A stretch of DNA of 43,473 nt from an uncultured Bacteroidales bacterium (lineage in GTDB: Bacteria; Bacteroidota; Bacteroidia; Bacteroidales; FEN-979): positions 1 through 43,473 of the forward strand of contig CAIJYT010000018.1 in the NCBI GenBank assembly GCA_903824935.1. The letters are read 5' to 3'. The notes beneath the pieces are model-generated. The model had not been told where the DNA came from and did not search any database. It saw only the letters and a list, made by a program, of their open reading frames with translations. The translations under genes and the position numbers were made by a program. This document shows positions 3,094 to 43,473 of the stretch, piece by piece (the first letter of the stretch is position 1; every line of letters starts with the position of its first letter).

Positions 3094-3190
3094 ATAGCGA
3101 AGTAGCGAAGTAGCGAAGTAGCGAAAGTTTTCCTTAGTAATAATCGACATATTATTTCGCCATTTCGCTACCTCGCTACTTCGCTACTTT
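3092..3190. repeat. Palindromic 8-bp tandem array, TAGCGAAG family (arm 1 3092-3125, arm 2 3154-3190)
   Basis: aatagcga agtagcga agtagcga agtagcga aag ... tttcgccatttcgctacctcgctacttcgctacttt; the second arm is approximately the reverse complement of the first. Confidence 0.9.
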
Positions 3191-3205: not shown

Positions 3206-4159
3206 ATGAAAAAAATGCCCGTCATCCTCGGTCCTACTGCCTGCGGGAAAACCGCGGTGGCCGCCCGTCTCGCGTATGAGATGGACGGCGAAGTGATCTC
3301 GGCCGATTCAAGGCAGGTTTATCGTGGAATGGATATCGGTTCAGGAAAGGATCTCGGTGATTATATCGTTGAAGGCCGGCAGATCCCTTACCACCTGGTC
3401 GATATCGCAGAACCAGGTTACGAGTACAACATCTTCGAGTATCAGAGGGATTTTACCAAAGCTTATGGTGATATTGTTAAGCGGGGTAAACTTCCAGTGC
3501 TTTGCGGCGGCAGCGGGATGTACCTTGAAGCCGTGCTCAAAGCTTATTCTTTGCCCGAAGCCCCCTCAGACCACGGCTTTGCCAGGCTGATGCAATCCAT
3601 GGATGAGCATGCCCTGCTGCACGAACTCAGTCAATTTAAGAAACTCCACAGTACAACAGATACCGTTGATCGCAACCGGATGCTTAGAGCATTGGAAATA
3701 GAGATTAAGCGCAGGGATGAAAAAGTATCAAATAGCGAAATAGCGAAATGGCGAAATAGCGAAATAAAAACATCATTTCAATCTATCATTTTCGGTATAA
3801 ATCCCGGGCGGGAAACCGTGCGTCAGCGTATCACTTTACGGCTGAAGTCAAGGCTTGAAGGAGGCATGATAGATGAAGTGAGGCGTCTCCAGGACCAGGG
3901 AGTCCCTCCGGCTCGCCTGAAAGCATACGGGCTTGAATACAAATACCTCGCCCTCCATCTCGAAGGCGCATTGAGCTATGACGAAATGTTCAGGCTTCTC
4001 AACATCTCCATCCACCAGTTCGCCAAACGGCAAATGACCTGGTTCCGCCGCATGGAGCGACAGGGCATGAGAATACATTGGATCGAAGGCGACCTGTCAT
4101 CCGAAGAAAAAGTTAAAAGGATAAGGGAAATAATTGGAAGTAGCGAAGTAGCGAAATAA
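3206..4159 (+). CDS. miaA: tRNA dimethylallyltransferase
   Basis: MPVILGPTACGKTAVAARLA, ISADSRQVYRGMDIGSGK, YEYNIFEYQRDF, GGSGMYLEAVL, NISIHQFAKRQMTWFRR. Confidence 0.95.
   Translation: MKKMPVILGPTACGKTAVAARLAYEMDGEVISADSRQVYRGMDIGSGKDLGDYIVEGRQIPYHLVDIAEPGYEYNIFEYQRDFTKAYGDIVKRGKLPVLCGGSGMYLEAVLKAYSLPEAPSDHGFARLMQSMDEHALLHELSQFKKLHSTTDTVDRNRMLRALEIEIKRRDEKVSNSEIAKWRNSEIKTSFQSIIFGINPGRETVRQRITLRLKSRLEGGMIDEVRRLQDQGVPPARLKAYGLEYKYLALHLEGALSYDEMFRLLNISIHQFAKRQMTWFRRMERQGMRIHWIEGDLSSEEKVKRIREIIGSSEVAK
3730..3766 (+). repeat. TAGCGAA-family octamer array inside miaA, read in frame
   Basis: aaatagcg aaatagcg aaatggcg aaatagcg aaata, translated as NSEIAKWRNSEI. Confidence 0.85.
4139..4159 (+). 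repeat. TAGCGAA-family array forming the last codons and stop of miaA
   Basis: agtagcgaagtagcgaaataa encodes ..SSEVAK*. Confidence 0.8.
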
Positions 4160-16673: not shown

Positions 16674-16720
16674 GTCTGCCAACAGGGCCGGTATTGCCGG
16701 CGACAGTAAAATCAAGGTCC

Positions 16721-17758
16721 ATGGCCGGAAATTCATTCGGAAAAATCCTAGTGCTGACGACCTTCGGGGAATCGCACGGAGCCCTTACCGGAGGGGTACT
16801 TGACGGTTTTCCATCCAATTTTCCAATTGATCTGCATTTCATTCAGTCGGAATTGAACCGCAGGGCCCCTGGATCTGGTGATTTGTCTTCACCCCGCAGG
16901 GAGGATGACAGTATTGAGATATTATCTGGAATATTTGAGGACAAAACTACCGGCGCCCCCATCGCATTTATAATTCCAAACAAGGATCACAGGTCTGAGG
17001 ATTATGCTTCGGTGAAGGAAATTTACCGGCCCTCTCATGCCGATTACACCTGGGACAGGAAATTCGGCCACCGTGATTACAGGGGAGGCGGAAGGATCTC
17101 GGCCCGTGAAACCGCGGCCAGGGTTGCAGGCGGGGCTTTTGCAAAACAATTTCTGCGCACAAAGGAAATAAGTATCCAGGCTGTTGTATCGGAAATAGGG
17201 GGATACAGGATGCAGGATGAAGGATGCGGGTTGCAGGATGAGGAGATGAAAGTTAAGGAATACCTGGAAGCACTCAGGGCCAGCGGAGACACTGCCGGCG
17301 GTATCATCAGCTGTACAATAAACGGGCTGCCTGCAGGGCTTGGTGAACCCGTGTTTGACAAACTGCAGGCCGGGCTGGCCCATGCGATGCTGAGTATTAA
17401 TGCGGTTAAAGGGTTTGAATACGGATCAGGTTTTGCCGGTGCCCGCATGAAAGGCTCCGAACATAATGATGTATTTGTAACAGGCCCGGATGAAACGAAA
17501 CTTCAGACGAAGACGAACTTCTCGGGAGGCATACAGGGCGGGATCTCCAACGGCATGCCCGTTGTTTTCAGGGTAGCATTCAAACCTGTCTCATCCATAA
17601 AAATGCCGCAGTCAACAGTCGATAAACATGGCCGCGTGGTAGAATTTACAGGCGGCGGCCGGCACGACGTCTGTGTTGTCCCACGCGCCATCCCTATAGT
17701 TGAAGCCATGGCAGCACTGGTGATAGCTGATCATCTGCTCGTGAACGGTGACTGGTGA
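16721..17758 (+). CDS. aroC: Chorismate synthase
   Basis: TTFGESHGALTGGVLDGFP, LNRRAPGSGDLSSPRREDD, RPSHADYTWDRKFGHRDYRGGGRISARETAARVAGGA, GGIQGGISNG, GRHDVCVVPRAIPIVEAMAALV. Confidence 0.95.
   Translation: MAGNSFGKILVLTTFGESHGALTGGVLDGFPSNFPIDLHFIQSELNRRAPGSGDLSSPRREDDSIEILSGIFEDKTTGAPIAFIIPNKDHRSEDYASVKEIYRPSHADYTWDRKFGHRDYRGGGRISARETAARVAGGAFAKQFLRTKEISIQAVVSEIGGYRMQDEGCGLQDEEMKVKEYLEALRASGDTAGGIISCTINGLPAGLGEPVFDKLQAGLAHAMLSINAVKGFEYGSGFAGARMKGSEHNDVFVTGPDETKLQTKTNFSGGIQGGISNGMPVVFRVAFKPVSSIKMPQSTVDKHGRVVEFTGGGRHDVCVVPRAIPIVEAMAALVIADHLLVNGDW
17201..17244 (+). repeat. CAGGATG-family heptamer-like array inside aroC
   Basis: ggatacaggatgcaggatgaaggatgcgggttgcaggatgagg, read in frame as GYRMQDEGCGLQDE. 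Confidence 0.7.
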
Positions 17759-17811
17759 ACGGTGACTGGTAAAACGGATAACCATTCACGGTTCACCGTT
17801 CACGGATCACG
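17741..17811. repeat. Palindromic heptamer array shared by the convergent aroC and aguA 3' ends
   Basis: gtgaacg gtgactg gtgaacg gtgactg gtaaaacgg ... attcacg gttcacc gttcacg gatcacg; both stop codons lie inside. Confidence 0.9.
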
Positions 17812-18865
17812 GCATGGGTTCCTGCTGGCTCAGGCAATGCCATGAGCCGAGACCCCAGATAATTTCAACAGAATCTATCCCCACGATCCTTCTCCCGGGA
17901 AAACACTCTTCAAGTATTCGTATGGCCTTTTCATCCTGTTTGCAGCGGTAAAGAGGCACTATCACTGAAGTGTTTGAGATATAGAAATTGGCATAGGAGG
18001 CAGGCAGTCGCTGGTCCTCGAACACCACCGGGTCGGGCATGGGAAGCTCAACAATATCCAGCTGTTTTCCGTTCGGCAGCCTGAAAGTCTTCAGCTTTTT
18101 CAGGTTGGCATCGAGTATTGCATGATTAGGGTCACGATGGTTTCGTTCAACCATTGTGATGACCCCGTCGGGTTTGAAAAACCTGGTGATATCGTCGATA
18201 TGCCCGTTGGTGTCATCCCCTTCTATTCCGTCATCCAGCCATAAGACCTGGTCCACACCATAGAAATTAACAAGGTAATCTTCTATTTCATGCTGAAGAA
18301 GATGAGGGTTCCTGTTTTCATGAAGGAGGCAGGCTGTGGTCGTGAGGAGGGTTCCCTCGCCGTTAAAATCCACTGCCCCCCCTTCCATCACGATACCCGG
18401 ATAAAATACAGGCAGGTCAAGGAATTTAGCAGCAAGCCCCGGTATTTTCCCGTCAAGATCATGAGGATATTTGTCTCCCCAGGCATTGTACCTCCAGCTT
18501 ACTACTGCTTTGGGTTTGGCCGACTGAGTGTTTAGAACGAAAGCAGGACCGTGATCGCGGCACCATGCATCGTTGGTAGGATGGATCAAAAGATCAATCT
18601 TCGACATGTCGACTCCCCCAACCTCAAGCCCTGCCGCAACCTCCGATTTCAGCCTTTCATCCCTTACATTGATGCAAACCCTCTCCCCTGCTGAAAGCTC
18701 CTTGATAAAAGCGTTGTAAAACCCGAAAATATTATGTAACGTACCGGGCCAGCTGTAGGAATCGCTGTGGGGATAACTAAGCCAGGTTGCCCTGTGCTTA
18801 TGCCATTCGGCAGGGAAGCTGTAGCCAAGGTCTCTTGGGGTTGGATGAACAATACCGTTTGCCAT
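17807..18865 (-). CDS. aguA: Agmatine deiminase (peptidyl-arginine deiminase family, no signal peptide)
   Basis: WLSYPHSDSYSWPG, NDAWCRDHGPAFVLN, MEGGAVDFNGEGTLLTT, EGDDTNGHIDDITRF. Confidence 0.88.
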   Translation of the reverse strand: MANGIVHPTPRDLGYSFPAEWHKHRATWLSYPHSDSYSWPGTLHNIFGFYNAFIKELSAGERVCINVRDERLKSEVAAGLEVGGVDMSKIDLLIHPTNDAWCRDHGPAFVLNTQSAKPKAVVSWRYNAWGDKYPHDLDGKIPGLAAKFLDLPVFYPGIVMEGGAVDFNGEGTLLTTTACLLHENRNPHLLQHEIEDYLVNFYGVDQVLWLDDGIEGDDTNGHIDDITRFFKPDGVITMVERNHRDPNHAILDANLKKLKTFRLPNGKQLDIVELPMPDPVVFEDQRLPASYANFYISNTSVIVPLYRCKQDEKAIRILEECFPGRRIVGIDSVEIIWGLGSWHCLSQQEPMP

Positions 18866-26796: not shown

Positions 26797-26839
26797 GTAA
26801 AAACCAAAAAACATGAGATTGATCACCTCAATATCCTGA

Positions 26840-26974
26840 GTCTTCTTCCATCCAGACTATAACTGTCGGTACCGTAGTTTCAACGGTTCCCTCCGTGAAT
26901 CCCGGATGAGCACATCCTGGGATTATCGGAATAGCGGACTTTACCGCCGATCGGGAATTTCACCCTGCCCTGAA
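26840..26974 (-). ncRNA. FMN riboswitch (RFN element)
   Basis: Minus strand: TTCAGGGCAGGGTGAAATTCCCGATCGGCGGTAAAGTCC...GGATTCACGGAGGGAACCGTTGAAACTACGGTACCGACAGTTATAGTCTGGATGGAAGAAGAC; matches RFN consensus, upstream of ribD. Confidence 0.95.
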
Positions 26975-27074
26975 GATTTTATTTATAAAGAACGAAACAG
27001 TTTTGCGAACACCCGGGATAACCCGTTCCCCTCTTCCATTATTCCGGAAAGTTCATAATGGGGAATTGTTGCTG

Positions 27075-33335: not shown

Positions 33336-36300
33336 TTGAAGCACTTATACTTACTCTTTTTTCTGATCTTATTTCCAATACTTTTATCAGGGCAAACAAA
33401 CACCGACTTCTGGTTTGCCGGGCCTGAAGTTACATCAGGTCATGCCGACTCCCCTATCTTTCTCCGTGTAACCTCATTCAACCAGACTGCAAATGTAAGT
33501 ATTTCGGAGCCTGCCAATACTGCAGCTTTTCCAACGCAGAATATTGTCGTTCCGGCAAACAACACGATATCCGTCAACCTGACTGCATGGAAGGAGATCA
33601 TTGAATCAAAACCTCCCAATACAGTGTTGAATTACGGCATCCACATTCATTCAAATGTTCCCATTACAGCGTATTATGAGGAATCCAGTACACAAAATCC
33701 TGAAATATTTACATTAAAGGGCAATGATGCCCTGGGGACTTCATTTTATATTCCTTCCCAGGACACTTTGTATAATCAGGCTTTAAATCCCCAGGCTTAC
33801 AACTCCTTTGATATCATAGCCACTGAAGATGGAACAACCGTGACTATAACGCCTAAGACTGCCATTGTGGGCCATGCTGCGAAATCCACCTTCACCGTGA
33901 CCCTGAACCAGGGCCAGGTTTACAGCGCGCAGGCTACAGGACTGAACGGGCGTGACCACCTCATGGGCTCGACCGTTACTTCCGATAAAGCAGTTGCAAT
34001 TACCGTCAAGGATGATTCTGACCGGTTTCCGGGCCAGGGTTGTTATGACCTTACAGGGGACCAGATAGTTCCTGTGAATATAGTCGGGACCCAATATATA
34101 GTTGTACGTGGTTATTCCAACGGTGCAATGAATGACTGGGTGTTTGTGACGGCCACTGCCAATAACACCAACATCAGCGTTAACGGTGTTTTTGCCGTCA
34201 ACAAGAACGCCGGCGACACCTATCATTTCAAGATGGCCCTGACCGACACCTCCGCCTACGTTTCTACCGACAAGCCTGTTTACGTATGGCATCTTACAGG
34301 TTATGGCTGTGAAGCGGGTTCAGCCATTCTTCCACCGATGAACTGCACTGGATCTTCACAGATTGCATTCACACGCACCTCCGGAAATTCCTTTGAGCTG
34401 ATCATCCTTACCAAAGCCGGCGCCCAGGGATCCTTTACCCTTGACGGAAACTCCGCCCTGGTTACCGCTGCAATGTTCCATGTTGTTCAGTCCAATCCTG
34501 CCTTCGTCTTTGCCCGTATCGATTTCCCCGTTGGCACATTGCCGGTCGGCGCCCATATCCTTGCAAATTCACAGGACATCTTTCATATGGGAGTAATTGA
34601 AACATATGATGCAGGGCAGGCAGGTTGTTCTTATGGTTACTTTACCGATTTTGCCAGCCTGAACCTCGGGCCTGACCAGGAGGTATGCCAGGGTGTCAGC
34701 ATAACGCTTGACGCAGGGCCCAACCGGCTAAGCTATGACTGGTATTATAACGGCACCCTTTATACCTCAGGGGTTCAGTCCATAACAGTCAGCAACCCCG
34801 GAACATATTCTGTGACAGTGAACGACCACAGCTGTATATTATCCGATACCGTCGTCCTCAGTAATTATCCTTTTACAAACCCTGTCATAAACGGGGTCAC
34901 CGATTTCTGTGAAGGCACTCCCCAGCAGCTCAGCGTGCAGGGCACATATACTTCCTACCTTTGGACTACAGGAGCGACAACCCAGTCCATTACAGTTAAC
35001 ACAAGCGGCACCTACGGCGTAACTGTTTCAGACGCAAATCATTGCACCGGAAACACCTCTGTGAACGTAACTGTTCATCCCCTGCCGACAGCAACAATTT
35101 CGGGTACTATTGCAGTCTGCCAGAATGCAACTCAACCCCAGATTATTTTTACCGGGGCTTCAGGAACAGCGCCGTACACCTTTACCTATAATATTAACGG
35201 CGGATCAAATGTTACCATAGCCACAACTTCCGGGAACAGCGTGACTTTGAATGTACCGACAGGAACTCCCGGCACTTTCGCATACAGCCTTGTGAGTGTG
35301 CAGGATGCAAGTTCACCCCTTTGTTCCCAGGCCCAGGCAGGGAGCGCCACTGTTACTGTAAACGCCCTGCCAACCGCAACCATCTCAGGGACTGTTGCAG
35401 TTTGCCAGAATTCAAACGCCCCACTGGTCACCTTTACCGGAGCATCAGCCACTGCACCTTATACCTTTACATATAAGATCAACGGGGGAGCCAACCAGGT
35501 TATAACCACCACCTCGGGCAACAGCGTGACACTGGCCGCCCCGACCAATGTAGCAGGCACATTCGTCTATTCACTGGTGAGCGTGCAGGACGGCAGCTCA
35601 ACCTTATGTTCACAGGCCCAGGCCGGAAGCGCCACGGTAACTGTAAATCCCCTTCCTGCCGCCAGCATCTCAGGGACCACAGCAGTTTGCCAGAACTCTG
35701 CTTCACCCCCTGTTACTTTTACCGGTTCTTCAGCCACAGCGCCTTATACTTTTACTTACACCATCAATGGAGGTTCCAGCCAGACCATCACCACCACTTC
35801 AGGTAACAGCATCAGCATTGCCGCACTCACTATTACCGCCGGCACTTACGTATATGACCTGGTAAGCGTGCAGGATGCGAGCCTGACCCTCTGTTCACAG
35901 ACCCAGACCGGAAGTGCCACGGTGACCGTAAATCCCCTGCCAACAGCCACAATATCGGGGACTATGGCTGTTTGCCAGAATTCCAACGCACCCCTTGTAA
36001 CCTTTACCGGGGCTGCTGCCACCGCACCATATACCTTCACTTATACTTTAAACGGAGGTTCAAACCAGAACATCACCACTATTTCGGGTAACAGCATAAG
36101 CATTGCCGTTCCAACCAACACCGTCGGCACCTTTGTGTATACCCTGGTCAGTGTGCAGGATGCCAGCGTCACCCACTGTTCACAGGCCCAGGCCGGAAGC
36201 GCTACGGTAACGGTGAATCCTCTTCCAACAGCTGCCATTGCGGGAAACACTGCCGTTTGCCAGAATGCAAACGCTCCTCTGATAACCTTTACAGGGGCTT

Positions 36301-37940
36301 CAGCCACTGCGCCTTATACTTTTACATACAAGATCAACGGAGGGGCTAACCAGCTTGTCAGCACGACCTCAGGAAACAGCGTCACGGTGGCAGCTCCAAC
36401 CGGCATTCCGGGAACTTTCATCTATACGCTTGTCAGCGTGCAGGATGGCAGCGCCACAACCTGTTCACAAGCTCAGGCCGGAACAGCGACAGTCACCGTC
36501 AATCCCCTGCCCACGGCAACAATCTCAGGAACAACGGCCGTATGCCAGAACTCATCCTCTCCCCTGGTCACCTTCACCGGGGCTTCGGCCACAGCACCCT
36601 ATACCTTCACTTATAAAATCAACGGTGGTGCAAACCAGATGGTCACCACCACCTCGGGAAGCAGTGTAAGCATAGCAGTTCCGACTTCCACTGCAGGAAC
36701 CTTCAGCTATTCCCTTGTAAGCGTGCAGGACGGAAGCGGCACCCTTTGTTCGCAGAACCAGGCCGGAAATGCCACCATCACAGTTTCCGCATTGCCCACT
36801 GCTTCCATCTCGGGAACCACTGCCGTATGCCAGAATGCTGCTGCCCCCCTGATCACGTTTACGGGGGCCTCGGCCACTGCTCCTTACAGCTTCACCTATA
36901 ATATCAACGGGGGAGCCAGCCTTATCGTCACCACCACTTCAGGCAACAGCGTGACCATTGCAGCTCCGACCGATGTACTGGGGAACTTCAGCTACAACCT
37001 GCTCAGCGTCCATGACGGCAGCCCCCTGGCCTGCCAGCAGGCACAGACAGGAACAGCCACCATCACAGTCAACCCCAACCCCGACGTCACCCTGCAGTCC
37101 TGCAATGACCCGGCCACGACAAGGGGGTCTAAACCCCTGATATTAAAAGGAGGGGTTCCTGTAGGAGGCGCTTACGGAATAGACGGTAATCCACTGCCCA
37201 CTGGCATCCTTGATCCTTCAACCCTGAGCCCAAGTCCTCCGGATCATATCATCTCATATACTTATACGAACCGCTTCAGCTGTGCAATTACAAGGACCCA
37301 GGCTCTGAAAGTCAACAACTCTCCCATTTTTACCTGTAAGAGTGCCATGACCGATATCCGCGATCAGAAAACATACCAGACTTTTGAGATCTATGTCGGG
37401 GGAGTTTACCGCTGCTGGATGTCATCCAATCTCAATTACGGCAATTTCACACAGAGCAATCTCGTGCAAACCGACAATTGCAGTGTTGAAAAATACTGCC
37501 AGGGAAATGACCTTACAAAGTGTGCAGAATCAGGTGCGCTCTACCAGTGGGATGAACTTATGAATTACCTGCCTGCGAATAATTTATCTGCAGAAGGCAG
37601 GCAGGGATTATGCCCTCCCGAATGGCATGTACCTACCGAAGCAGAATGGTCAGACCTTGAGACCTTTTACTCAGGACCCGGCCTGGCAGGCTGGAGTCTT
37701 CTGGACCTCAATCCCTTATACGGATTCCATGGAAAAACCGCCGGCTTCCTTTATCAGAATCTTGTTTGGGCTTTTGTACCACCAAACTTCAGTGCCACCA
37801 TGTTTTGGACTTCTACCGTAAGTTCAGCCACAAACACAAGGATTTTCGCTCATGGCCTGAATGAAATAAATGCCAGTGTATCAAAATATTTCTCAACACG
37901 GGGCAACGCTTTGCCTGTTCGCTGTGTCAAGGATCTGTAG
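33336..37940 (+). CDS. Giant cell-surface protein: IgGFc-binding-like N-terminus, PKD-like array, C-terminal FISUMP domain
   Basis: TTG start, signal peptide KHLYLLFFLILFPILLSGQ; N-terminal TDFWFAGPEV...; seven 95-aa PKD-like repeats; C-terminal YRCWMSSNLNYG...GALYQWDELMNY...GLCPPEWHVPTEAEWSDLE...MFWTSTVSS...LPVRCVKDL. Confidence 0.85.
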   Translation: MKHLYLLFFLILFPILLSGQTNTDFWFAGPEVTSGHADSPIFLRVTSFNQTANVSISEPANTAAFPTQNIVVPANNTISVNLTAWKEIIESKPPNTVLNYGIHIHSNVPITAYYEESSTQNPEIFTLKGNDALGTSFYIPSQDTLYNQALNPQAYNSFDIIATEDGTTVTITPKTAIVGHAAKSTFTVTLNQGQVYSAQATGLNGRDHLMGSTVTSDKAVAITVKDDSDRFPGQGCYDLTGDQIVPVNIVGTQYIVVRGYSNGAMNDWVFVTATANNTNISVNGVFAVNKNAGDTYHFKMALTDTSAYVSTDKPVYVWHLTGYGCEAGSAILPPMNCTGSSQIAFTRTSGNSFELIILTKAGAQGSFTLDGNSALVTAAMFHVVQSNPAFVFARIDFPVGTLPVGAHILANSQDIFHMGVIETYDAGQAGCSYGYFTDFASLNLGPDQEVCQGVSITLDAGPNRLSYDWYYNGTLYTSGVQSITVSNPGTYSVTVNDHSCILSDTVVLSNYPFTNPVINGVTDFCEGTPQQLSVQGTYTSYLWTTGATTQSITVNTSGTYGVTVSDANHCTGNTSVNVTVHPLPTATISGTIAVCQNATQPQIIFTGASGTAPYTFTYNINGGSNVTIATTSGNSVTLNVPTGTPGTFAYSLVSVQDASSPLCSQAQAGSATVTVNALPTATISGTVAVCQNSNAPLVTFTGASATAPYTFTYKINGGANQVITTTSGNSVTLAAPTNVAGTFVYSLVSVQDGSSTLCSQAQAGSATVTVNPLPAASISGTTAVCQNSASPPVTFTGSSATAPYTFTYTINGGSSQTITTTSGNSISIAALTITAGTYVYDLVSVQDASLTLCSQTQTGSATVTVNPLPTATISGTMAVCQNSNAPLVTFTGAAATAPYTFTYTLNGGSNQNITTISGNSISIAVPTNTVGTFVYTLVSVQDASVTHCSQAQAGSATVTVNPLPTAAIAGNTAVCQNANAPLITFTGASATAPYTFTYKINGGANQLVSTTSGNSVTVAAPTGIPGTFIYTLVSVQDGSATTCSQAQAGTATVTVNPLPTATISGTTAVCQNSSSPLVTFTGASATAPYTFTYKINGGANQMVTTTSGSSVSIAVPTSTAGTFSYSLVSVQDGSGTLCSQNQAGNATITVSALPTASISGTTAVCQNAAAPLITFTGASATAPYSFTYNINGGASLIVTTTSGNSVTIAAPTDVLGNFSYNLLSVHDGSPLACQQAQTGTATITVNPNPDVTLQSCNDPATTRGSKPLILKGGVPVGGAYGIDGNPLPTGILDPSTLSPSPPDHIISYTYTNRFSCAITRTQALKVNNSPIFTCKSAMTDIRDQKTYQTFEIYVGGVYRCWMSSNLNYGNFTQSNLVQTDNCSVEKYCQGNDLTKCAESGALYQWDELMNYLPANNLSAEGRQGLCPPEWHVPTEAEWSDLETFYSGPGLAGWSLLDLNPLYGFHGKTAGFLYQNLVWAFVPPNFSATMFWTSTVSSATNTRIFAHGLNEINASVSKYFSTRGNALPVRCVKDL
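35079..37073 (+). repeat. Seven tandem copies of a 285-bp (95-aa) PKD-like module
   Basis: VCQN Cys codons at 35118, 35403, 35688, 35973, 36258, 36543 and 36828: every spacing exactly 285. Confidence 0.95.
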
Positions 37941-38129
37941 AAGTGTATTTGTATAGATAGTGGAGTGACAAATTTAACATTCCCTGATTATTATACTAAA
38001 CATAACAACCGCAAGAGACAGAAAATTAAAGATATGTATTTTTTTTGTTTACATTTACACATTGACATAAAACCCATCTCTTGATTTTTTTTAAACTACA
38101 AAGACCCTGGTGACCTGATGGTCTGACTC

Positions 38130-41100
38130 ATGAAACGATACAAGAAAGTACTCCCAACCTGCTTTTTTTCGGTGAACCTGGCAGGCCGGAAACACTCAAC
38201 CCAATTCACCAGGACCATGACTGCTCTTTTTCTCGGGGTCTTATTGTTATCTGCTGCCATTCTCCCTGCAAAATTGACAGCCCAGGAAAATGGAGCAACT
38301 TACAAACTCGGGCAGCAACTTCTTCCGGGAAATTTTGAGCCTCAGACTAACCAGTCCTCCGGAGGTATCCTCCCGATGTATGATCCGATGACAGGCAACC
38401 TCAATACGAACTGTCCGAATTCGAACTTTTCAGTAGGGAATTTCTCAAACTTGACCGGATGTTACGGATGGTTTTCTACTGCCTGCAACTGCGCCAATCC
38501 CGGTTTTCTTACTTCAGGAGCCCATCCTTTGCATAAGATCATTGCAGCCCCGGGTTGGCTTGACCATAATACCTGTGATTCTTTGCAGACGGTTTACCCG
38601 GGTGAAGCTTATGTTGCGCGGCTTGGCGATACAATGTATACCAGCAATAATGGTAATGCATGTCCCCCGGGTGCACGAGGCATTAAAAAGGAGGCCGAAC
38701 TGACTTACCAGGTAACTGTTACTTCCAGCTCATACCTTTTTATTTACAGGTATGCTGTAGTCCTGCAAACCGGCGGACATCCAAACAACCAGCAGCCTGA
38801 TTTCAAAATCGAGGTAACGGATAACCTGGGTACTGTTCTTGACTCAACTTGCGGCTATTATTACATTACCGCCCAGGGGAGCGGCCCCCCGGCTCTCGGA
38901 TGGCACCGGTGTACAAACAATGGAAACGGGAATGTTTACTGGAAAGACTGGACCACCGTCGGAATGAACCTGTCAGCTTATCTCGGCCAGACGGTTTATG
39001 TCAAATTCAAAACACGTGGATGCACTTACGATACTCATTTCGGTTACGCTTACATCTCCACTTACTGCAGTTCCCTGCAGATACAGACAGCACTTTGTGA
39101 AGGCGATACCTCCGCAACCCTGATTGCCCCCCCGGGATTCAGTCATTACCGCTGGAGCACAGGAGATACAACAGCCCAGATAACTGTACCTCACCCTGTT
39201 ACCGGAGCAAGTTACTGGGTTAAAATAACTTCATATAACAATTGTGCAGATACTATCTGGAACACCCTTACTTACACTGTGATCACTACCGATTTTACCC
39301 ATGCCGCTGCATGTCAGAATCAGTCCACTCAATTTACTGACCTCAGTACAGTTAATCAAAATCAAGTCGTTGACTGGAGATGGGACTTCGGTGACGCCAC
39401 CCCAATTGTGGCGGGAATAAAGAATCCAACCCATACTTTTACAAATACAGGCACTTTCATTGTCAAACTGGTTTCTTACTCGACCGAAGGCTGTAAGGAT
39501 TCCATCACCCATTCAGTTACTGTGAGCCCGATGCCAACCGCTACCATTACGGGCGGGACATCCGTTTGCCAGAATACTACATCCCCGTTGATAACTTTTA
39601 CAGGAGCATCAGCCACAGCTCCATATACCTTTGGATATACCATCAACGGAGGTCCAATAGTATATGTTGCAACCACTTCGGGTAACAGCGTCACAGTATC
39701 CGCTCCAACCAATACGGTCGGTACTTTTATCTATGCCCTTGTCAACGTAAAAGAAGGAAGCGCGCAAGGGTGTTCACAGACGGCCACGGGAACCCAAACA
39801 ATCACTGTGAACCCTTCACCATCAGGAACAATTTCGGGAAACACGGCATTATGCCAGAACGCAGCTTCTCCAGTGATTACATTTACCGGGACAGCGGGGA
39901 CCTCGCCTTTCACCTTTACCTATACTCTTAACGGGGGTTCCAATCAAATCATTACAACTGTTTCGGGTAACAGTATAACACTTCCTGTAAGTACGAACAT
40001 ACCGGGAACCTATATCTATAATCTGGTAAGCATACAGGACGCAAGTGCAACAGCCTGTATCATGCCTCTGACAGGGACTGCTACGGTGACTGTCAACCCT
40101 TTACCGTCAGCAACTATTGATGGCACTGTATCCGTTTGCCAGAACGCCGCATCCCCGTTAATTACATTTACAGGGGATGTGTCCACTGCACCCTATACGT
40201 TTACCTACAAGATCAATGGAGGTGCAAATCTTGTCGTAACCACAACTTCAGGGAACACCGTGTCGGTTCCTGCGCCTACCAATACCGTGGGCACATATGT
40301 ATATTCGCTGGTGAGTGTTCAGGATGGCAGCTCCACCGCATGTTCCCAGGCACAAACGGGAAGTGCAACAGTAACTGTCAATCCTTTACCCACAGCTACT
40401 GTTGACGGCACCATCTCTGTTTGCCAGAATGCAAGCCCTCCATTAGTTACTTTTACTGGAGCGGCAGCCACTGCTCCCTATACGTTCACTTACAATATAA
40501 ACGGCGGCGCCAGTCAGTTTGTCACAACAATTTCAGGCAACAGTGTTACCATAGCTGCACCCACCAGTGTGGTCGGCGCCTTCACCTATAACCTTTTAAG
40601 CGTTCAGGACGGAAGTACGACCACATGCTCCCAGGCACAGACCGGCAGTGCAACAGTCACAATAAACCCATTGCCCACTGCAACTATTTCAGGAACAACA
40701 GCGGTTTGCCAGAATTCAGCAGCACCCCTTGTCACCTTTACAGGCGCATCAGCAACGGCTCCATACACCTTCACTTATAATATCAACGGGGGTGCCAGCC
40801 TGTTTGCCACCACTACCAGCGGGAACAGTGTAACAGTGACCGCTCCCACATCCACCGTAGGTACTTATACTTATAACCTGCTGAGCGTCCAGGACGGAAG
40901 TTCCACGGTATGTTCCCAGCCGCAATCCGGTGCGGCTACCGTCATTGTGAATCCCCTGCCGACTGCTGCCGTCACCGGCTCAACTGCAGTTTGCCAGAAT
41001 GCCACAGCTCCCCTGGTCACGTTTACAGGCGCATCATCCACAGCGCCCTATACTTTTTCTTATAATATAAACGGCGGATCAGTACTGACCGTTACCACAA

Positions 41101-43473
41101 CCATAGGAAACAGCATTACCGTTGCCGTGCCCACAGGCGTGGTAGGCAGCTTTACCTATAACCTGCTGAGCGTGCAGGATGGGAGCGCGACAGTTTGCTC
41201 CCAGGCACAAAGCGGAAGTGCCACAATAACCGTCAATCCTTTACCTACAGCGACGGTGGCCGGGACAACCTCGGTTTGCAGGAATGCCACTTCACCACTT
41301 GTCACCTTTACCGGTGCATCTTCCACAGCGCCCTATACTTTCTCTTATAATATTAACGGCGGATCGGTACTGACCGTTACCACGACCTCGGGAAACAGCA
41401 TTACCGTTGCAGCGCCCACTAACGTTGTGGGCAGCTTTACCTATAACCTGCTGAGTGTTCAGGATGGAAGCAGCACAGCCTGTTCCCAGGCCCAGGGCGG
41501 AAGCGTGACCATTAATGTAAATCCCCTGCCCACAGCCACCATCTCAGGAACCACGGCAGTTTGCCAGAATGCAACAGCACCCCTCATCACCTTTACAGGC
41601 GCGTCTTCAACGGCTCCTTATACCTTCACTTACAAGATCAACGGAGGAGCCGACCTTGTCGTTTCAACCATTGCTGGGAACAGCGTGACAGTAGCCGCAC
41701 CAACAGGTGCTGTTGGAACATATACTTATTCTTTGGTTAGCGTACAGGACGGAAGTTCAACGCTTTGTTCACAGGCCCAGGCAGGCAATGCAACAATTAT
41801 AGTGAATCCATTGCCAACAGCAAACATTGCAGGCACGACCACCGTTTGCCAGAATGCTACGGCTCCCCTTGTCACTTTTACCGGTGCATCCTCAACAGCT
41901 CCGTATACCTTTACCTATAACATCAACGGGGGGTTGAACCAGACCGTAAGTACAACCATCGGTAACAGTGTTACAGTTACAGCCCCCACCAATGTACCCG
42001 GGACTTTTGCCTACAACCTCGTAAGTGTGCAGGATGGCAGCGCAACAGCCTGTTCGCAAGCCCAGGCAGGCATTTCGACTATTACTGTCAATCCATTGCC
42101 AACCGCAACAGTCTCGGGAACCACATCGGTTTGCCAAAACTCATCGTCTCCCCTGATCACCTTTACCGGTGCGGCAGCAACTGCGCCTTATACCTTCACT
42201 TATAATATCAACGGGGGAGCCAGCCAGTTCATCACCACTGTCGCAGGAAACAGTATAAGCATTGCAGCTCCGACCAATGTATTGGGGACATTTAGCTATA
42301 ACCTCGTGAGCGTGCATGATGGCAGTGGGCTTTCCTGTTCACAGGCTCAGAGCGGAAGCGCAACAGTTACTGTGAACCTTTTACCAACCGCAACGATCGC
42401 AGGAACAACGGCTGTTTGCCAGAATGCGGCTACTCCTTTAATAACATTTACAGGAGCTTCCACAGCACCGCCTTATACCTTTACTTACAATATCAACGGG
42501 GGAGCCAGCCAGTTTGTAACTACCTCATCGGGAAGCAGCGTTACAGTGCCCGCTCCTACCAATACTACCGGTATGTTTACCTATAACCTGCTCTTTGTGC
42601 AGGATGGAAGCGCAACCCCTTGCGCCCAGGCCCAGGGCGGAATTGCAACCATTACAGTACGTCCTTTGCCTACTGCAACCATTTCAGGCACAACGGCAGT
42701 TTGTCGCAACTCAGCCTCTCCGCTTATAACCTTTACCGGGGCATCTTCAACAGCTCCTTACACCTTTACCTATAATATAAACGGAGGAGCTAACCAGGTA
42801 GTTTCTACCATAGCAGGTAACAGCGTAACCGTGGTCGTCCCGACAGGTACTGCCGGCACTTATATTTACACCCTGTTGAGCGTTCAGGACGGAAGCACAA
42901 CCGCCTGCTTAAATTCACAATCGGGAAGCGCAACCATCACTGTAAATCCCTTACCCACCGCCACCATATCAGGAACGACAGCTGTTTGCAATAACTCCGC
43001 TGCACCTCTTATCACCTTTACCGGGGCATCTGCAACAGCTCCTTACACCTTCACATATAAAATCAATGGAGGTGCGAACCAGGTCATATCCACCAGCGCA
43101 GGGAACAGCGTCACACTACCCGCTCCGACATCCGCAGTAGGTACTTTTATATATTCATTAGTGAGTGTGCAGGAAGGCAGCTCAACCGCATGTTCACAGG
43201 CCCAGGGCGGAAGCGCCACAGTGATAGTGAATCCCCTGCCCTATGTAAACCTCACGGGTTGTAATGACCTTACTACAACATCAACCTCCAGGAGCTTTAC
43301 TCTCAAAGGCGGATCGCCCCCGGGAGGAACTTATTACATCGACGGGGTTCCTGCTGCAGGAGGTATTTTCAATCCCTCGGTGCTTTCTTCAACAAGCCAC
43401 CAGGTCACCTATACCTATACAGATTTCAATACCTGTAAGAGCACTTCAAGTTCGGTATTTATCAATATCATAA
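38130..43473 (+). CDS. Giant cell-surface protein (3'-truncated by window): N-terminal lectin-like/unknown region, PKD domain, at least 13 PKD-like repeats
   Basis: ATG 38130: MKRYKKVLPTCFFSVNLAGRKHSTQFTRTMTALFLGVLLLSAAILPAKLTAQENG...; open in the parts of this frame I translated, no stop seen to 43473; PKD motif DWRWDFGDATPIVAGIKNPTHTFTNTGTFIVKLVS. Not in the supplied ORF list. Confidence 0.88.
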   Translation, partial: MKRYKKVLPTCFFSVNLAGRKHSTQFTRTMTALFLGVLLLSAAILPAKLTAQENGATYKLGQQLLPGNFEPQTNQSSGGILPMYDPMTGNLNTNCPNSNFSVGNFSNLTGCYGWFSTACNCANPGFLTSGAHPLHKIIAAPGWLDHNTCDSLQTVYPGEAYVARLGDTMYTSNNGNACPPGARGIKKEAELTYQVTVTSSSYLFIYRYAVVLQTGGHPNNQQPDFKIEVTDNLGTVLDSTCGYYYITAQGSGPPALGWHRCTNNGNGNVYWKDWTTVGMNLSAYLGQTVYVKFKTRGCTYDTHFGYAYISTYCSSLQIQTALCEGDTSATLIAPPGFSHYRWSTGDTTAQITVPHPVTGASYWVKITSYNNCADTIWNTLTYTVITTDFTHAAACQNQSTQFTDLSTVNQNQVVDWRWDFGDATPIVAGIKNPTHTFTNTGTFIVKLVSYSTEGCKDSITHSVTVSPMPTATITGGTSVCQNTTSPLITFTGASATAPYTFGYTINGGPIVYVATTSGNSVTVSAPTNTVGTFIYALVNVKEGSAQGCSQTATGTQTITVNPSPSGTISGNTALCQNAASPVITFTGTAGTSPFTFTYTLNGGSNQIITTVSGNSITLPVSTNIPGTYIYNLVSIQDASATACIMPLTGTATVTVNPLPSATIDGTVSVCQNAASPLITFTGDVSTAPYTFTYKINGGANLVVTTTSGNTVSVPAPTNTVGTYVYSLVSVQDGSSTACSQAQTGSATVTVNPLPTATVDGTISVCQNASPPLVTFTGAAATAPYTFTYNINGGASQFVTTISGNSVTIAAPTSVVGAFTYNLLSVQDGSTTTCSQAQTGSATVTINPLPTATISGTTAVCQNSAAPLVTFTGASATAPYTFTYNINGGASLFATTTSGNSVTVTAPTSTVGTYTYNLLSVQDGSSTVCSQPQSGAATVIVNPLPTAAVTGSTAVCQNATAPLVTFTGASSTAPYTFSYNINGGSVLTVTTTIGNSITVAVPTGVVGSFTYNLLSVQDGSATVCSQAQSGSATITVNPLPTATVAGTTSVCRNATSPLVTFTGASSTAPYTFSYNINGGSVLTVTTTSGNSITVAAPTNVVGSFTYNLLSVQDGSSTACSQAQGGSVTINVNPLPTATISGTTAVCQNATAPLITFTGASSTAPYTFTYKINGGADLVVSTIAGNSVTVAAPTGAVGTYTYSLVSVQDGSSTLCSQAQAGNATIIVNPLPTANIAGTTTVCQNATAPLVTFTGASSTAPYTFTYNINGGLNQTVSTTIGNSVTVTAPTNVPGTFAYNLVSVQDGSATACSQAQAGISTITVNPLPTATVSGTTSVCQNSSSPLITFTGAAATAPYTFTYNINGGASQFITTVAGNSISIAAPTNVLGTFSYNLVSVHDGSGLSCSQAQSGSATVTVNLLPTATIAGTTAVCQNAATPLITFTGASTAPPYTFTYNINGGASQFVTTSSGSSVTVPAPTNTTGMFTYNLLFVQDGSATPCAQAQGGIATITVRPLPTATISGTTAVCRNSASPLITFTGASSTAPYTFTYNINGGANQVVSTIAGNSVTVVVPTGTAGTYIYTLLSVQDGSTTACLNSQSGSATITVNPLPTATISGTTAVCNNSAAPLITFTGASATAPYTFTYKINGGANQVISTSAGNSVTLPAPTSAVGTFIYSLVSVQEGSSTACSQAQGGSATVIVNPLPYVNLTGCNDLTTTSTSRSFTLKGGSPPGGTYYIDGVPAAGGIFNPSVLSSTSHQVTYTYTDFNTCKSTSSSVFINII
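39528..43232 (+). repeat. Thirteen tandem copies of the same 285-bp (95-aa) module
   Basis: Conserved Cys codons at 39567, 39852, 40137, 40422, 40707, 40992, 41277, 41562, 41847, 42132, 42417, 42702 and 42987: every spacing exactly 285. Confidence 0.95.

Follow-up and report, generated by a model that had tools for sequence, protein, structure and literature searches.

The aroC and aguA genes of a Bacteroidales bacterium end in a shared two-armed heptamer array

The aroC and aguA genes of an uncultured Bacteroidales bacterium converge on a single palindromic repeat, which raises the question of whether the repeat or the genes determine where the two proteins end, and of what kind of repeat it is. 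The locus lies in a 43,473-nt stretch of DNA that was analyzed as a whole and is referred to here as the window. A preliminary description of this DNA had proposed that both stop codons lie within the array and that the array, not the ancestral genes, defines both termini. Genes were called with a simple script combining ORFs and a codon score, the starts of which are unreliable; the caller begins aroC at a TTG, and the conserved start is probably the ATG of MAGNSFGK. The source genome, G000, is a 3.63 Mb draft, and the genomes compared with it represent one genome per species. By AroC, the named relatives closest to G000 are metagenome bins that carry the labels Bacteroidetes or Bacteroidales. 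The junction contains the following features.

16,694-17,758, plus strand: aroC, chorismate synthase (NCBIfam PRK05382, 424 bits)
17,741-17,768, plus strand: left arm, four GTGANNG heptads ending in ACG, CTG, ACG and CTG
17,756-17,758, plus strand: aroC stop codon TGA, within the third heptad
17,769-17,782, no strand: spacer or hairpin loop region GTAAAACGGATAAC, 14 nt
17,783-17,810, minus strand: right arm, four inverted heptads, reading GTGATCC, GTGAACG, GTGAACC and GTGAATG on the minus strand
17,807-17,809, minus strand: aguA stop codon TGA, within the outermost right-arm heptad
17,807-18,865, minus strand: aguA, ORF for an agmatine deiminase-like protein, facing aroC (NCBIfam PRK13551, 265 bits against a curated cut-off of 483)

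Both stop codons lie within the two-armed array, as originally described. The left arm consists of the heptads GTGAACG, GTGACTG, GTGAACG and GTGACTG, its units thus alternating with a period of 14 nt, and supplies the stop and the last five codons of aroC, whose end reads CTC GTG AAC GGT GAC TGG TGA. The terminal peptide LVNGDW had been taken to be wholly array-derived. This is correct for VNGDW; the leucine codon (CTC, 17,738-17,740) lies ahead of the array, as part of the conserved ADHLL segment. On the minus strand aguA ends in ATG CCG TGA, with its stop (17,809-17,807) inside GGATCACGG. The arms, reported to be complementary, pair in every GTGA/TCAC core and are mismatched at variable positions, giving 81% complementarity overall. 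The array strand is predicted to fold at -41.5 kcal/mol (z -6.6). An Rfam search of the window found nothing at this array; its sole match is an FMN riboswitch aptamer elsewhere (26,836-26,981, minus strand, 102 bits).

The array is one of many in this genome, and their periods are restricted to 7 and 8 nt. The string GTGANNNGTGA occurs 19 times in the window compared with 1.3 expected from mononucleotide shuffles. Genome-wide, the triple-heptad pattern GTGANNNGTGANNNGTGA has 312 matches while the reversed pattern has two, so that the aroC/aguA array is not a chance structure. The pattern is present in 40 of 43 family genomes and, mostly at low count, in 66 of 149 genomes of an order sample; in several relatives the reversed control is also matched by different units with that period, which lifts it well above zero. 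Across 31 kb of G000 non-coding sequence (the counts draw on stretches totaling about 511 kb, some of them selected for arrays), 46 runs have period 7 and 36 have period 8, with at most one run for each other period from 4 to 13 and at most 0.2 runs per period expected from Markov simulation. The window together with 20 other family genomes (420 kb) yielded 66 period-7 and 29 period-8 runs, mainly non-coding, and three runs in total for the other periods from 4 to 13. Tandem Repeats Finder (TRF) likewise returned periods of 7 and 8 in the window, and the periodicity is weaker in Flavobacteriales loci (10 and 3 runs in 48 kb). Units vary widely in type and include GTGANNS, GTAGCGAA, GGATGCA, GTACATT and GGTTACTG, among others. 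Two-armed arrays in G000 place GTGA first in 21 cases and TCAC first in none when at least one unit pair per arm is required (27 to 5 under looser limits), and this polarity is unchanged between divergent genes. A purine-first rule extended to all units found partial support and was not relied upon. Further arrays in the window are listed below.

3,095-3,189, no strand: octad palindromic array (TAGCGAAG ... TTCGCTAC) immediately after a stop codon
12,146-12,243, no strand: further two-armed GTGA/TCAC array of this type, 3 nt past a stop
17,201-17,244, plus strand: second array of heptads within aroC (GGATGCA units), in frame, in the GYRMQDEGCGLQDEEMK loop
30,541-30,571, minus strand: TCAC-arm array whose end lies 2 nt from a minus-strand stop codon

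An octad array, AAATAGCG, also lies at 3,730-3,766 inside the ORF that follows the first of these (3,206-4,159). Repeats of another scale occupy 35,298-43,216, where 285-nt (95-codon) tandem units that are about 70% alike overlap a 1534-aa ORF and reach near the window end; this ORF looks like a large repeat-domain surface protein.

The same slot between aroC and aguA holds different arrays, or none, in relatives. The junction of a genus mate (G005) has neither array nor hairpin: AroC ends in ADHLVMTAGV and AguA in QQEPA, separated by 16 nt. In G002 a shorter GTGA array (GTGAANC) supplies the aroC stop only (ILVNRES), the aguA stop being a TAG immediately outside the array, and the orthologous arrays of G000 and G002 differ in unit order and length. 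G006 carries a GCGAAAR/TTTCGCY heptad array and both flanking genes keep their own TAA. In G007 (locus L174) the slot is filled by an octad palindrome with unit AAATGGTG that adds the tail peptide NGEMVK to both AroC and AguA. Units in more distant relatives are GGTAAACG (G012), AAAGTAAC (G013) and TGAACTGG (G025). Array-supplied termini are found in G007, G012, G013, G018, G022 and G027 as well, and in several relatives unrelated 7- or 8-nt arrays also form the AroC C-terminus. By the script definition the aroC stop falls within a 7/8-nt run in five of the 27 aroC ends scored, a strict criterion that misses the window's own left arm owing to the period-14 alternation of its units. G034, G011, G024 and G022 have overlapping stops at the junction instead.

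The array sets the stop positions, within a few tolerated codons. In the alignment of AroC from relatives, conservation extends in every row as far as ADHLL or the corresponding residues, and the tail beyond differs in every relative, whether an array is present or not. AguA retains its ancestral QQEP end with variation of one or two residues (QQEPA in G005, QQEPL in G002 and QQEPMP in G000). The LVNGDW terminus is absent from relatives lacking this array, in line with the original proposal, and the stop positions of both genes do follow the array; the termini are nevertheless shifted by only a few codons. To say that the array and not the ancestral genes defines both termini therefore goes too far. 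We prefer a reading in which gene constraint limits how far an array spreads and the array fixes only the last tolerated codon. Nor is this junction the clearest case of a shared terminus, as had been suggested: that of G007, where the octad array extends both proteins, is clearer, and about 8% of sampled genes, or one in twelve, have a stop that falls in a 7/8-nt run.

Arrays cluster at gene 3′ ends and also occur in frame within genes. Of the array arms in G000, 31 are no more than 30 nt away from the 3′ end of a gene; 26 of these have GTGA in the sense strand, and distances to gene ends pile up at -4 to +4 nt; many genes place their own stop 2-4 nt ahead of the array. The stop lies within a 7/8-nt run in 6 of 75 genes from a sample of mostly contigs not chosen for arrays, in 31 of all 337 genes fetched and in 20 of 249 in the family. 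At 3′ ends the sense strand is purine-rich in 76 of 95 cases. ORFs contain 11 GTGA arrays. Eight of these are read in frame from the stop-free TCAC strand alone, and the other three carry some GTGA-reading units as well. Hosts include cysteinyl-tRNA synthetase (CysS), histidyl-tRNA synthetase (HisS) and NAD synthase (NadE), with in-frame GTGA-family heptads at L157:17257-17302, L161:7140-7173 and L164:5332-5370, respectively, encoding peptides like TVHDSRITDHDSRIT. The HisS array lies within an insert of about 18 residues relative to the solved homologue 6nhi. In CysS the net insert is four residues relative to 6ujd and the remainder of the array replaces loop sequence. The GGATGCA array inside aroC is expanded in G007 and absent from G002, G004, G005 and G006.

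The arrays are a further member of the known heptamer repeats. The closest parallel is found in Xanthomonas and Nostoc, where the heptamers GGGAATC and GGGGA(C/T)T form 7-nt tandem units that are mostly intergenic and in some cases intragenic, lie on the sense strand within 50 bp of stop codons, some overlapping the stop, and differ in length and sequence between the same gene pairs of related species (PMC4692102). Each Xanthomonas genome holds 70-75 convergent inverted heptamer pairs (PMC4692102). The present arrays share the dispersed head-to-tail 7-nt units (the 46 period-7 runs above), the position near stops in the sense orientation and the frequent convergent inverted pairs, here 21 two-armed arrays and none reversed when at least one unit pair per arm is required. 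In contrast, the Xanthomonas and Nostoc unit is G4-forming, with one studied unit per genome, whereas here GTGANNS and other 7- and 8-nt units interchange in one slot. Because GTGANNS contains no run of three G, the aroC/aguA array is a heptamer repeat but not of the Xanthomonas/Nostoc unit type; G-richness is not a general heptamer trait. Direct TAACTGA repeats occur in Beggiatoaceae, Cyanobacteria and some Bacteroidetes, in which other heptamer arrays were also noted, and MacGregor pointed out that, owing to the stop codons in TAACTGA, the repeat in that orientation can overlap coding sequence only where a gene ends (PMC4679880). Most of those repeats precede start codons, and inverted arms are nearly absent (PMC4679880), while the present arrays lie at stops and are often inverted. 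Geobacter metallireducens has heptanucleotide and octanucleotide elements of four or five tandem units, intergenic and in one family also intragenic, which have other unit sequences and are proposed to be regulator sites or regulatory RNAs (PMC2700814). Rickettsia palindromic elements and REP/RAYT sequences are palindromic and found both between genes and in frame in conserved enzymes (PMC2229807, PMC3733652), but have a defined length and end tags, unlike the present variable tandem arrays, which have no tag and no linked transposase. A literature search for the array DNA and the array peptide (SRFTVHGSRF and similar) returned no relevant paper. Compared with these systems, the present arrays come in a wider range of units and in two periods, and units can be seen to replace one another within a single slot.

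Short-period arrays of 7 or 8 nt likely expand through local tandem duplication where the DNA is free of constraint, with gene constraint acting as a filter. Slippage, or a comparable error of replication or repair, would be the growth step. Arrays would halt at coding sequence, with gene overlap surviving only where it is harmless. One such place would be the extreme 3′ end of a gene, where a GTGA-reading arm brings a TGA into every reading frame over 21 nt and so provides a new stop a few codons on; the other would be loops, in which arrays persist in frame, for the most part read from the TCAC strand, which lacks stops. The tail-to-tail junction of aroC and aguA, 16 nt long in the array-free genus mate, would have been filled by a two-armed array, each arm giving the facing gene its stop. 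Local duplication fits the high proportion of adjacent heptads that are identical, which is far above unit shuffles (65 of 155 pairs; shuffled mean 30 and maximum 43 in 500 shuffles). We infer slippage as the mechanism of growth and neutrality of the arrays. The three of 11 intragenic copies that also carry GTGA-reading units count against this explanation. Plain slippage leaves the second inverted arm and the fixed polarity, which holds even between divergent genes, unexplained, and the strict restriction to 7 and 8 nt needs a cause beyond slippage alone; for the 7-nt preference, an idea cited for the Xanthomonas and Nostoc heptamers ascribes it to the DNA segment held by the polymerase (PMC4692102).

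Alternatively, the arrays could act at mRNA 3′ ends, as bidirectional terminators or stabilizers for convergent genes in a role like that of REP/BIME sequences. The strong hairpin at aroC/aguA, the hairpins formed by the slot arrays of G002 and G007, the fixed GTGA-to-TCAC polarity and the purine-rich sense strand at 3′ ends all favor such a function. We regard it as unlikely: the slot arrays of G006, G012, G013, G025 and G027 have little or no folding advantage over shuffles (z -1.4 to +1.1), G005 has no array or hairpin in the slot, and arrays also occur inside coding sequences and between divergent genes. An intrinsic (Rho-independent) terminator at aroC/aguA was rejected, the hairpin having no U-run and a search of 17,400-18,200 giving no match; T-runs follow 11 of 84 arms compared with 8% of intergenic positions, which is not clearly above background. 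A conserved hairpin with covarying arms found no support, as variable heptad letters match across the hairpin no better than in shuffles (82 compared with 89). With arm letters out of register and several slot arrays folding not clearly better than shuffles, it is not a conserved hairpin that persists in the slot. Less probable still is selection of the arrays as backup stops for convergent genes in all three frames and on both strands. Each GTGA heptad does hold a TGA, neither period, 7 nor 8, is divisible by 3, so that stops come to lie in all frames, and most arms near 3′ ends (26 of 31) read GTGA in sense; yet arrays between divergent genes, a setting without gene ends, show the same polarity, stop-free GCGAAAR units fill the same slot in G006, copies exist inside genes and a gene's own stop often precedes the array by 2-4 nt.

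Insertion of a whole palindromic mobile element of the REP/RAYT, MITE or Rickettsia palindromic element type, carrying stops along, would account for arrays that are dispersed, palindromic, fixed in polarity and present both between genes and in frame within them, and the G000 genome does contain one Y1_Tnp gene. That locus (3.3 kb), however, has no 7/8-nt run and no GTGA heptad pair, and no GTAG (or CGTC) tag is present at 17,736-17,815, on which grounds REP/RAYT was rejected. No terminal signature, fixed length or clear shared flanks were seen, empty sites being compared at the level of the genus; among the matches listed, flanking sequence common to different arrays consisted of other array letters, except for one 16-mer at two places of one contig. 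Copy-and-paste of whole arrays was also rejected: shared 25-mers show no significant excess over unit shuffles (48 compared with 26.6, maximum 67), although a few octad strings recur two or three times. With the orthologous arrays of G000 and G002 differing in length and unit order, and several unrelated units having the period alone in common, we consider a mobile element improbable. There is a similarly small chance that this Bacteroidales-type family has a dedicated enzymatic process that lays down arrays in fixed 7- or 8-nt steps from any unit, adds the inverted second arm and repeatedly rewrites gene ends; if so, the last residues of many proteins would be products of that process.

On the best explanation, local duplication filtered by gene constraint, the aroC/aguA array clearly illustrates a type of repeat that is already known, and is not a new control device. 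For annotation, such arrays explain abrupt differences between the C-terminal tails of conserved enzymes in close relatives and the ending of neighboring convergent genes in one repeat. The strict 7/8-nt period, kept despite unit turnover, makes these arrays a clean natural data set on why long simple repeats in bacteria favor 7 nt, and the family offers dozens of orthologous slots in which this preference can be tested.
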